Source: Arenibacter algicola
GTDB lineage: Bacteria; Bacteroidota; Bacteroidia; Flavobacteriales; Flavobacteriaceae
Assembly: GCF_018860365.1 (NCBI RefSeq)
Contig: NZ_JAHKPO010000029.1
Location: 62,001 to 126,000 of the forward strand
Direction: 5' to 3'
Length of the DNA: 64,000 bases
In this document: positions 13,758 through 22,501 of the stretch, piece by piece
Layout of the letters: the number at the start of each line of letters is the position of its first letter
How positions within the stretch are numbered: the first letter of the stretch is position 1
The notes under the pieces: generated by a model
Database searches by the model: none
Seen by the model: only the letters and a program-made list of their open reading frames with translations
Told to the model about the DNA's origin: nothing
Translations under genes and position numbers: made by a program

Positions 13758-13775
13758 AAAGTTCAAATAAAGGAT
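13758..13775 (+). repeat. Array repeat R7
   Basis: Exact consensus copy. It is preceded by a longer shared stretch (CTCCTATGAAAAG and CCAGTTCTCT) also found before R8 and partly before R11, and followed by a perfect hairpin. Confidence 0.92.
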
Positions 13776-13794
13776 AGCATCAATGATGCTATCC
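13772..13794. repeat. Perfect hairpin joined to repeat R7
   Basis: GGATAGCATCA and its exact complement TGATGCTATCC are separated by a single A. The first four bases are the end of repeat R7. An identical hairpin follows R16 (22451-22473). A stem this short-looped is better seen as a protein or recombination site than as a terminator, since no T-run follows. Confidence 0.75.
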
Positions 13795-13811
13795 CGTCGT
13801 TAGCAGTAACC

Positions 13812-13844
13812 CTACTACTACTACTACTACTACTACTACTACTA
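13812..13844. repeat. CTA trinucleotide microsatellite (11 units)
   Basis: Eleven uninterrupted CTA units in non-coding DNA, 35 bp beyond the stop of the minus-strand gene at 13879. Such tracts change length by slippage, but this one is outside reading frames. Confidence 0.95.
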
Positions 13845-13878
13845 CGATAACATTGAGCAAACCATTAAATCGGAGCAA

Positions 13879-14337
13879 TTATAGATAGTCATCCTTTATA
13901 AGATAACTATCTATTACCATGTCAAAAATATTATCTTCAATAACAACTTGTTTGAATATTTCTACTTGCATCCCTGCGTCGACCTCGTCTTCATTCATAG
14001 ATTGTGCGTCAGCAATATAAAAATTCCATGAAATCAAATCAATTTTATCTTGATGCTCAAATAATAATTTGGCAAGTTCCAATTTTGACGCCGATACTTT
14101 TATCAGAGTACCCCATTTATCAAAGCCTGCAATATTGGCGATTACATGCTGTGCGTTCATGAGGCTAAAATTTTGCTCGTCGATATCAAAGTCCGAAATA
14201 ATATCATAAATTTGAAAATACTTCGGCGAATACTCGTACTGAAAACGGCCTATCGTTTTGTCAACAAGAGGAGTTTGGGTCTTGAAGTCCCTGTGTAGAT
14301 TTTTTGCTTGAAGTTTGAAGTAGTCAATAGTGTTCAT
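13879..14337 (-). CDS. Conserved hypothetical protein, inverted cassette gene
   Basis: A 152-residue acidic soluble protein with no known function; its N-terminal style (MNTIDYFKLQAKNL) and FDKWGTLIKVS/ELAKLLFEH segments recall small uncharacterised Bacteroidota proteins. It is one of two minus-strand genes in an otherwise plus-strand array. Its own start is preceded on the minus strand by a variant of the array repeat (14344-14362), which suggests a whole cassette in inverted orientation. Confidence 0.6.
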   Translation of the reverse strand: MNTIDYFKLQAKNLHRDFKTQTPLVDKTIGRFQYEYSPKYFQIYDIISDFDIDEQNFSLMNAQHVIANIAGFDKWGTLIKVSASKLELAKLLFEHQDKIDLISWNFYIADAQSMNEDEVDAGMQVEIFKQVVIEDNIFDMVIDSYLIKDDYL

Positions 14338-14873
14338 AATATAATCCTTTAGTTCAAAGACTATTATCCTGAAATTTTGCGTTCGTATACTGTGGTTGGA
14401 TAATAAGCTCTGAAGGGGTTATATTATCTAGTTATTGGTTGATGAAATCTTCGCACGAACGAGCAGGCATACCAAAAACACCTGACACAAATATAAAAAA
14501 TTCCATTCAAATTATTCTTTACTATTCTAATTTTTTTCCTTTGTTTAAAAATAACCAGGCTACTGCTGACAAAAGGGTAAATTAACTGTTTCTGAAATCT
14601 GCGAGAGTGTAAATAATTCTAGATACGTATTACAAGTATTTAAGAAATAAAGAACAAGCAACAAGGTTAGAGACTAATTTAGTGTAAAGGCTAATCTTTA
14701 ACTTTTGTAAACTATGTGCCTTAACGAACATACCCAAAAAACCAAAAACATATATTATAAATTTCGTTTTGCCAACACAAATATCTACGATTGAAAATAA
14801 TTATATGAAAAATGCTTAAATTGAGAAATGAAAAAACAGCAAAAAAATATCTATACCCTTAACTGTTAAAGGC
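14338..14873. other. 536-bp intergenic region
   Basis: Very AT-rich and without a convincing ORF. It separates the divergent genes at 14337 and 14874 and probably carries both promoters. Apart from the inverted repeat variant at its left end I see no RNA gene or strong hairpin. Confidence 0.5.
14344..14362 (-). repeat. Inverted copy of the array repeat (variant)
   Basis: Read on the minus strand, AGTCT, six bases and then TAAAGGAT; R3 has AGTCT, three bases and TAAAGGAT. It ends 6 bp before the ATG of the minus-strand gene, the same placement as plus-strand copies. The spacer is 3 bp longer, as in the variant at 12555. Confidence 0.5.
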
Positions 14874-15656
14874 ATGAAAATAAATTTAAATCATCACATA
14901 AGTTTAGTAGTCTTCGTTTTTTTTATAGTCTTAACAAGTGTCATTAGTGCTCAAACCAACCAATCGTTATTTGATGTCCCAACTGCTGAAAATGTTCTTA
15001 AAAATGTTAAGGGTAAGAATATGGTAGATACTTATGCTAAACAATGTGCGGCTTTAGTGGTTATGCAGGATATTTCAAGATTATATCAGTTTAAAAATGG
15101 TAAGTCTAAAATTGTCGCCATGCAACTTGAAGAATATAGCAATGCAGTGAGAAACGTTTATAGTAATTATTTAAATGAAACGAATGCCCCAGATAAATGG
15201 TCAGGATTATGGAAAAATTATTATTACCATACTCCTGAGTTCCCCGAAGAGATGCGTGAATTACTTTTAAGCGAGAATGCAAAAGTAAACTACAATGCCA
15301 GAGTTAAAGAACAAAACATTATATCTGGAAATGAATACGATAAAATGAGAGCTGAAGAAAGAAAAGTACAAGAAGCAAAAGATAAAGAGGAACAAAAAAT
15401 AACTGACCGATACATACGACTGACTATTTTTGTAATTGGATTGTTGTTAGGTGTTTTTATCTTAATTAAAGCAAGAAATTGGAATAATAAATTAAGGCAA
15501 TATGAATTTGAAAATATTACTGATGGTGGTGTGATTCAATTTACAAATTTTAAAGATGCAGAAAATCATAGAAAAAACAAGCAATATGCAGGGTGTTTAT
15601 GGGGTTTGGGCGTAATAGTTACTATTTTTATGATAATTGTGTTCCTTATGACATAA
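14874..15656 (+). CDS. Hypothetical exported/membrane protein
   Basis: A 260-residue protein with an N-terminal signal peptide ending in VISAQ, a helical periplasmic region (about 30-170) with a charged coiled-coil-like part (MRAEERKVQEAKDKEEQK), a transmembrane helix (about 180-198) and a last hydrophobic helix at the C-terminus (about 240-258). No family is recognised. It shares the R7-R8 segment with the inverted gene. Confidence 0.55.
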   Translation: MKINLNHHISLVVFVFFIVLTSVISAQTNQSLFDVPTAENVLKNVKGKNMVDTYAKQCAALVVMQDISRLYQFKNGKSKIVAMQLEEYSNAVRNVYSNYLNETNAPDKWSGLWKNYYYHTPEFPEEMRELLLSENAKVNYNARVKEQNIISGNEYDKMRAEERKVQEAKDKEEQKITDRYIRLTIFVIGLLLGVFILIKARNWNNKLRQYEFENITDGGVIQFTNFKDAENHRKNKQYAGCLWGLGVIVTIFMIIVFLMT

Positions 15657-15805
15657 CTGCACTTTAATTAAGTACTGAGCCTGTATGAATAAAGCTTATA
15701 TCTTAATGCAAGAAAAGGGATATACTTACCTCCTTGCAGACTAAATAATAATAAGCACGAACGCACAACACCTTGCTCCTATGAAAAGCACTAGTCCAGT
15801 TCTCT

Positions 15806-15823
15806 AAAGTTCAAATAAAGGAT
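15806..15823 (+). repeat. Array repeat R8
   Basis: Exact consensus copy. The GTG start of the next gene is one base after its end. The 40 bp before it closely match those before R7. Confidence 0.92.
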
Positions 15824-15824
15824 A

Positions 15825-21738: not shown

Positions 21739-21748
21739 CCACTAAACC

Positions 21749-21766
21749 AAAGTTTAAATAAATGGT
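21749..21766 (+). repeat. Array repeat R14
   Basis: AAAGTTTAAATAAATGGT, ending exactly before the ATG at 21767. Confidence 0.75.
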
Positions 21767-21976
21767 ATGTTAGAAGATGGTTTTAGGTCGCATAGATATA
21801 GCGATATATTGGGCAACTTAAGGGAGAATGGTTTTCTGAACGTTGAGGATGTTAGTAAGCTGCTAAAAGAATTTACAAGTACAAAAAAAATTACTTTTGC
21901 TTGCATAAGCAATGAAAAAGCCAAAATAGTTTCAGAAGCATTGATTGATAACTATAATCGACAAAAGTCTAAATAA
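21767..21976 (+). CDS. Small hypothetical protein, cassette gene
   Basis: A 69-residue charged helical protein of unknown function. Its ATG follows repeat R14 with no gap and its last codons and stop (QKSK then TAA) are made from repeat R15. The smallest clear cassette of the array. Confidence 0.5.
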   Translation: MLEDGFRSHRYSDILGNLRENGFLNVEDVSKLLKEFTSTKKITFACISNEKAKIVSEALIDNYNRQKSK

Positions 21977-21981
21977 TCATT
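21964..21981 (+). repeat. Array repeat R15
   Basis: AAAGTCTAAATAATCATT. Gives the stop (21974-21976) of the gene before it and lies 3 bp before the GTG start after it. Confidence 0.72.
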
Positions 21982-21984
21982 GGC

Positions 21985-22422
21985 GTGAGAGATAATATTT
22001 CCAATAGTTATGTAGCTCTTGAACTTCCCGTACAATGGGGTGATATGGATGCTGCACAACACGTGAACAACACAGTTTACCTTCGCTGGATAGAATCGGC
22101 ACGTATTGAGATGTTTCAAAAAATGCATGAAGGCGAGTTCGATTCTAATAGGATAGTTCCTATATTGGCTTGGCAGGATTGTAAATATATCTTTCCCGTG
22201 ACCTATCCAGATCAAGTTGTCATTTCTTTGGATATAATTGAATTGTTGGAAGATAGAGTGCTTTGCGAAGGTAAAATCTATAGCAAAAAACATAAGGGAA
22301 TTGTTGCAATATCTCAATCGTTGTTAATGGCCTATGATATGAAGGAATTAAAAAAATACCCCTTTCCTCAGACTTGGAGAAAAACATTCATAGATTTTTA
22401 TGGGGAATCGATTTTAAAATAA
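21985..22422 (+). CDS. Acyl-CoA thioesterase-like hotdog protein (4HBT family)
   Basis: A 145-residue protein starting at GTG 21985. VQWGDMDAAQHVNNTVYLRW (about residues 15-34) is the 4HBT motif with the catalytic Asp and the HVN helix start; the central helix and five strands follow. It probably hydrolyses acyl-CoA thioesters; the substrate is unknown. Bounded by R15 and R16. Confidence 0.83.
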   Translation: MRDNISNSYVALELPVQWGDMDAAQHVNNTVYLRWIESARIEMFQKMHEGEFDSNRIVPILAWQDCKYIFPVTYPDQVVISLDIIELLEDRVLCEGKIYSKKHKGIVAISQSLLMAYDMKELKKYPFPQTWRKTFIDFYGESILK

Positions 22423-22436
22423 TTCATATGCCCTAA

Positions 22437-22454
22437 AAAGTTCAAATAAAGGAT
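22437..22454 (+). repeat. Array repeat R16
   Basis: Exact consensus copy, 14 bp after the thioesterase stop, followed by the same hairpin as R7. Confidence 0.92.
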
Positions 22455-22473
22455 AGCATCAATGATGCTATCC
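22451..22473. repeat. Perfect hairpin joined to repeat R16
   Basis: Arms GGATAGCATCA and TGATGCTATCC with a single-base loop, identical to that at 13772. Together with the repeat this makes an identical block of about 40 bp at two places. Confidence 0.75.
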
Positions 22474-22501
22474 CGTTGATACACCTCATTAGAAAATAAA
22501 T

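Follow-up and report, generated by a model that had tools for sequence, protein, structure and literature searches.

Why should a short repeat in a bacterial gene array be followed, at two distant places, by the very same perfect hairpin? The question is raised by a 64,000-nucleotide stretch of the Arenibacter algicola genome (contig NZ_JAHKPO010000029.1, positions 62,001 to 126,000; hereafter the window), in which a 40-bp block, AAAGTTCAAATAAAGGATAGCATCAATGATGCTATCCCGT, stands at 13758-13797 and again, unchanged, at 22437-22476. In each block the last 4 bp of an 18-bp repeat, AAAGTTCAAATAAAGGAT, starting at 13758 and 22437, are overlapped by a 23-bp palindrome, GGATAGCATCAATGATGCTATCC, with 11-bp arms and a one-base centre (13772-13794 and 22451-22473; 0 mismatches, with 0 expected in shuffles), just as an earlier reading made from the letters alone (the sequence-only reading) had described. 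Beyond 40 bp the blocks diverge (CGTTAGCAGTAACCC versus TGATACACC), at most 2 bp from where the attI-like sites discussed below diverge. Our answer, which we regard as probable, is that each block is the junction of two unrelated, independent site-specific recombination systems of marine bacteria, in which a site of a serine recombinase (the 18-bp repeat, or serine site) adjoins the attI-like hairpin of an integron-like tyrosine recombinase system. The parts of the two blocks, and of the cassette behind the second, are as follows.

13758-13775, + strand: 18-bp serine site of block 1 (weight matrix scan, 157-site profile)
13772-13794, + strand: palindrome of block 1, the attI-like hairpin (covariance model R1 match 13763-13807, 23.8 bits, E 0.016; DNA fold z -6.2)
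13795-13807, + strand: 5-bp spacer CGTCG, then the putative tyrosine crossover at G|TT and the first bases of the cassette joined there (TTAGCAGT); junction position from comparison
22437-22454, + strand: 18-bp serine site of block 2 (weight matrix scan, 157-site profile)
22451-22473, + strand: palindrome of block 2, the attI-like hairpin, identical to that of block 1 (DNA fold z -4.9)
22474-22478, + strand: spacer CGTTG of block 2, the next bases being AT, not TT (from the sequence)
22502-23689, + strand: Fic-domain gene behind block 2 (Pfam Fic, 4.1e-16)
23696-23760, + strand: attC-like terminus of the Fic cassette, AACA-AGTGATAT ... ATATCACC-GATACGTTG, immediately preceding the next serine site (stem/box scan)
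23759-23776, + strand: serine site closing the Fic cassette (weight matrix scan)

The left part of each block belongs to an array with a recombinase gene at its head.

7159-7839, + strand: small serine recombinase of 226 aa, DNA-invertase/resolvase type, at the array head (Pfam PF00239, 3.5e-41)
9618-24957, + strand: cassette array with 19 copies of the 18-bp serine site and mostly single-gene cassettes between them (weight matrix scan)

The solved structures nearest to this recombinase are DNA invertases (3e-35), and its residues S9, R7, R67 and R70 are invariant among relatives. The weight matrix scan finds all 19 serine sites of the window on the plus strand and 0 on the minus strand, and the blocks are the 7th and 15th of them; the sequence-only reading had numbered the first correctly and had made the second the 16th. 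Genes carried by the cassettes include Fic, thioesterase, YceI, DinB and acetyltransferase-like genes. The arrangement recurs in the 80 named loci, which are those encoding relatives of the serine recombinase, nearly all from Flavobacteriaceae: of the serine sites downstream of the recombinase gene, 272 lie on the coding strand and 2 on the other, and a single inverted site is typically present upstream (a total of 69). A pattern search of 299 genomes of the family found array clusters in other genera as well, and in viral contigs the site was seen as single occurrences only.

Two comparisons define the limits of this site. Among 157 array sites from several genera, information content is high throughout the 18 bp and drops to about zero immediately on either side; since these 18 bp served as the search key, the flanks alone provide an unbiased test. 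Furthermore, many segments common to the arrays of different species have their first base at offset 0 of the site and their last at offset +17 or just after it. These two results argue that the 18-bp repeat is, as far as sequence can tell, the complete cassette boundary of the serine-recombinase array, with the hairpin outside it, and together with the strand bias they bear out the earlier proposal that the repeat is the recombination site of a system headed by the serine recombinase. Within the repeat, a 12-bp core, GTTYAAATAAAC, shows near symmetry about a central AA, which is the likely 2-bp crossover.

The sequence-only reading had gone further and taken the entire 40-bp block for the full-length recombination site, the other repeats being shortened products left after exchange at GGATA. 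Such a site would fit a hairpin that shares 4 bp with the repeat and is the same in both blocks, but conservation beyond 18 bp is missing in the 157 sites, a hairpin followed by GTT[AG] stands behind only about 2% of serine sites, its distance from the serine site ranges from overlapping to 61 bp, and the same hairpin type exists with no serine site beside it. GGATA proved to be the right edge of the site and not a point of cut-off. We find a full-length site of 40 bp scarcely credible, and the near-zero information beyond 18 bp rules out the hairpin as a conserved part of the serine site.

Several further features of the serine system were observed. The recombinases fall into two subfamilies, about 50% identical and with the same site, the longer one having a zinc-finger-like tail, C-x2-C ... 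C-x2-H (7720-7839 and alignment A1). An inverted copy of the serine site, ACCGTTTTATTGAACTTT, together with further half-site-like repeats, is present in front of almost all serine recombinase genes, in the promoter region (7000-7159 in the window, and within the 140 bp upstream of most such genes, L140-L208); it may be an attI, a res-like or an autoregulatory site. One small cassette lies between serine sites in four other Arenibacter arrays (L057, L083 6458, L141 13505 and L198 12095), 92-96% identical or thereabouts where aligned, and has a divergent relative at window position 21749; the neighbourhoods differ, which on the sequence evidence makes this a clear case of cassette exchange.

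What, then, is the hairpin? In the whole genome of 5.75 Mb the palindrome has two exact copies, and the same contig contains a single relative that differs at 3 positions, with no others; for this reason it is not a genome-wide repeat, and two exact copies in 5.75 Mb are not the many copies of a dispersed repeat (REP or MITE). The exact hairpin is absent from the viral contigs searched, a plasmid search with block 1 gave no match, and no Rfam family was found at either block. A near-copy of the block is present in the related genome of A. hampyeongensis (L083 8938), where it overlaps a serine site.

The most informative relatives of the hairpin are found elsewhere in Arenibacter, often without a serine site. 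In three genomes (G300, G306 and G311) they lie directly 3' of a tyrosine recombinase gene of 377-385 aa, and all 13 related tyrosine recombinase genes of the genus (378-385 aa) with a readable 3' flank are followed by a palindrome, about 5 bp and then GTT[AG] (alignment A2), with different cassettes starting at G|TT. The letters of these palindromes vary with the pairing kept: 11 cells are changed on both sides versus 4.6 in shuffles and 1-3 in slid controls, and the covariation score of 0.192, versus 0.090 in shuffles, was reached by 0 of 500 shuffles. All attI-like sites share a conserved A-rich stretch in front of the hairpin (alignment A2). The hairpin type of the blocks, ATCATCAATGATG[A/C]TATCCAATTG|TTG with the middle CATCAATGATG, forms the platform edge in seven loci from five Arenibacter genomes; across these seven loci identity is 92% in the last 30 bases up to CAATTG|TTG and 43% in the next 42. 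Judged by these comparisons, the recombinase-adjacent hairpin with some 5 bp and G|TT looks like an attI-like site.

The same comparisons weigh on another suggestion, namely that the hairpin is simply an operator, or a regulatory palindrome of some other sort, for the Fic gene and its neighbours, or else a small mobile repeat, and that homologous recombination copied it between two cassettes. Palindromes are common operators, and two identical copies in one array would be expected from such copying. However, there are only two copies in the genome with different genes behind them, relatives with other hairpin sequences keep the same architecture, and this architecture and its junction recur in unrelated gene contexts, so that we hold an operator or mobile repeat to be very unlikely.

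The attI-like reading has a counterpart at the other end of the cassettes. Comparison of the seven-locus junction, and of single-gene units that end in attC, indicates that attC-carrying cassettes are joined at G|TT. Folded attC sites also occur between cassettes: behind the 385-aa tyrosine recombinase of G306 there are five attC-like sites (L125; TAACAATGGCTATAA ... CATAGCCNNACCGTTA) with long bulged stems, z -2.2 to -4.5. The Arenibacter enzyme itself scores below the integron-integrase cut-off (TIGR02249) and above the XerA cut-off (NF040815), and when it is aligned with IntI4 (2a3v), 25 residues stand where IntI4 has 68, at the place of the IntI-specific extra domain; by cut-offs and by this inter-motif stretch, it lacks the extra domain. 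None of the 18 genomes has a protein over the TIGR02249 cut-off, and matches below it occur in all genomes including controls, which is why this model was not used as a marker by itself. We write attI-like and integron-like because the enzyme is of Xer/XerA type, falls below the integron-integrase cut-off and has no room for the IntI-specific domain.

In the A. algicola genome itself, the nearest relative of the tyrosine recombinase has 356 aa and is 44% identical over the catalytic part; no close copy of the 378-aa recombinase was found in this genome, and no hairpin beside the 356-aa relative. Model R1 gives about a dozen weaker attI-like matches across its contigs. Two solo attI-like sites, C18:14971 and C4:522923 (L234 and L225), lie far from any recombinase and are each followed by a single gene ending in attC; no empty counterpart of these two filled sites was found in 18 genomes. 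The first of them adjoins genes resembling a multi-component ATPase defence system.

The two systems can be seen to meet in the serine arrays. The covariance model R1 was built from 13 recombinase-adjacent sites only and contains no sequence from the window or from any serine array; its E-values are rough. The block 1 match, with E 0.016 over 64 kb, would not be conspicuous if the whole genome were searched with the model. A stronger match, and a possible further copy, lie upstream of block 1.

12484-12501, + strand: serine site of a third cassette of the block kind (weight matrix scan)
12563-12614, + strand: third attI-like hairpin in the window, 61 bp behind the serine site (model R1, 33.7 bits, E 1.6e-4)
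13165-13225, + strand: possible decayed fourth copy downstream of the 13123 serine site, with TTAACTTAG, an imperfect hairpin and TTGTTAC (seen by eye, unscored by the model)

The TTAACTTAG element of the last of these is also present at the 3' end of tyrosine recombinase genes. In other serine arrays, model R1 matches stand 9-50 bp downstream of a serine site and share its strand (L154, L195/L082, L194, L153, L064 and L093), and in L198 and L207 they lie directly behind the serine recombinase gene; in a Flavobacteriaceae metagenome-assembled genome (MAG; L192), the exact 23-bp palindrome, followed by CAATTGTTG, is found some 85 bp behind that gene. A count that does not use the model gives a hairpin with GTT[AG] behind 9 of 399 serine sites versus 1 of 714 control places. 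The opposite ends of such cassettes show a corresponding excess, since CGTT with an attC-type stem at most 10 bp before a serine site was found in 8 of 19 cases versus 25 of 449 elsewhere in arrays (p 1.1e-5); this CGTT version replaced a loose attC scan accepting any GTT, which had a background of 6%. In the majority of serine cassettes no part of either the attI-like or the attC-like type is present. In front of ten serine sites there is an attC-like 5' half (TAACAATGTATC), and after this half a constant stretch, CTATGAAAAGCCCTAGTCCAGTTCTCT (13729-13757, 15777-15805 and 20134-20162 in the window; also L146, L153, L186, L205 and L060), possibly a second, short form of attC or a truncation product.

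Both window copies of the palindrome lie in the serine array with no tyrosine recombinase gene adjoining. In block 1 the order is serine site, hairpin, then TTAGCAGTAA and the apparent remnant of a gene start, which is intact behind the near-copy of the block in A. hampyeongensis. The block 1 cassette contains a (CTA)n run (13812-13845) in its 5' part, at the place of the intact gene start of the related cassette in A. hampyeongensis; the window copy looks decayed. In block 2 the order is serine site, attI-like hairpin, Fic gene, attC-like end and serine site. The attC-like end (23696-23760) has a 7/8 match to the L box and a GTT, and its predicted fold is no better than shuffles (z +0.97), so that it is weak when taken alone.

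A further alternative is that the palindrome is an intrinsic terminator acting on the minus strand, present at cassette edges by chance. On that strand the stem is followed by TTTATTTG, which fits the terminator pattern, a minus-strand ORF (13879-14337) ends nearby, and the A-rich stretch conserved before the hairpin in all attI-like sites would be T-rich. There is, however, no T run on the plus strand, and a terminator accounts neither for the constant GTT junction, behind which the genes vary, nor for the placement after tyrosine recombinase genes in 13 of 13 cases. As a full account of the blocks a terminator therefore seems unlikely, and a terminator role for a palindrome inside an attI-like site is compatible with the junction of two systems. 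Biochemically, the hairpin may act as a folded single strand, as a protein-binding palindrome or as a terminator that would stop transcripts running in from the cassettes; one possible role is to shield the recombinase from antisense transcription, because the minus-strand hairpin with TTTATTTG fits a terminator and because the A-rich stretch is conserved throughout.

The blocks can be modelled as junctions of two systems as follows. The left part of the block is the 18-bp serine site at which array cassettes exchange, as the comparative boundaries show; the right part, hairpin plus 5 bp plus G|TT, would be the attI-like insertion site of the Xer/XerA-type tyrosine recombinase system, behind which attC-carrying cassettes are joined. 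An attI-like site with the cassette behind it would then have been enclosed between serine sites and so become a serine cassette, the unit of block 2 comprising attI-like hairpin, Fic gene and attC-like end. The blocks would match up to about the tyrosine crossover and differ past that point because different genes are attached to the same platform edge, and the earlier suggestion that they reflect copying at recombination points is consistent with this scheme. Sequence comparison establishes serine sites as cassette boundaries and hairpin sites as edges from whose G|TT different genes start, and finds the two joined. The attI-like role of the right part rests on comparison for the genus; we infer it for the two block copies, as we do the enclosure of tyrosine-system units between serine sites and their travel as serine cassettes.

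A serine site joined to an apparent tyrosine landing site implies that the same genes appear to pass through both systems. A broader and more tentative possibility, short of an even chance in our estimation, is that the two recombinases work in series: the tyrosine enzyme would load attC cassettes at hairpins inside serine cassettes, and the DNA-invertase-type serine enzyme, sole operator of an integron-like array with 18-bp double-stranded sites, would then move the loaded units between arrays and species of Flavobacteriaceae.

Each half of the block has parallels among known systems. Like the attI sites of integrons, used by IntI, the homologous sites lie directly behind the recombinase gene and have a G|TT junction with attC-carrying cassettes joined behind; unlike IntI, the Arenibacter recombinase is Xer/XerA-like, with an extra N-terminal part and only a short stretch at the IntI-specific domain, and we know of no palindrome of the hairpin kind in attI1. 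The serine site resembles the crossover sites of the Gin and Hin invertases and of gamma-delta/Tn3 resolvases in enzyme family and in being short and partly symmetric with a central AA, but here tens of directly repeated sites bound gene cassettes, the layout is that of neither inversion nor cointegrate resolution, and the hairpin lies outside the site. The rAID arrays (recombinase-associated acquired immunity genes) of Bacteroides are likewise recombinase-headed gene arrays in Bacteroidota, with a tyrosine recombinase; the array described here has a serine recombinase, and its cassettes are not mainly immunity genes. Tn402-type integron transposons insert at res sites and so physically link serine-recombinase sites to integron parts, whereas the link here is made per cassette inside an array and not by one integron beside one res site.

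The integron is usually pictured as a single type of device driven by a single type of enzyme. Across one family of bacteria, an array run by a serine recombinase appears to fulfil an integron's task, and landing and exit sites of a separate tyrosine system are present in some of the array's cassettes, so that genes appear to pass between two chemistries. The composite edges would mark how the gene unit of one system becomes the cassette of the other, which makes the origin of cassettes testable, and the precise motifs are available for finding such arrays in other genomes. In the part of the open-access literature covered, we found no relevant report on serine-recombinase cassette arrays or integrons of Flavobacteriaceae; a complete integron is known in Bacteroidetes from Salinibacter ruber, as reported with IntegronFinder 2.0 (PMC9024848).

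The two recombinase systems also adjoin in one A. hampyeongensis locus, L082, where a tyrosine-type attI-like site with an apparent recombinase gene 3' end and a serine recombinase gene stand head to head, some 360 bp apart (15435 on the minus strand and 15793 on the plus strand).
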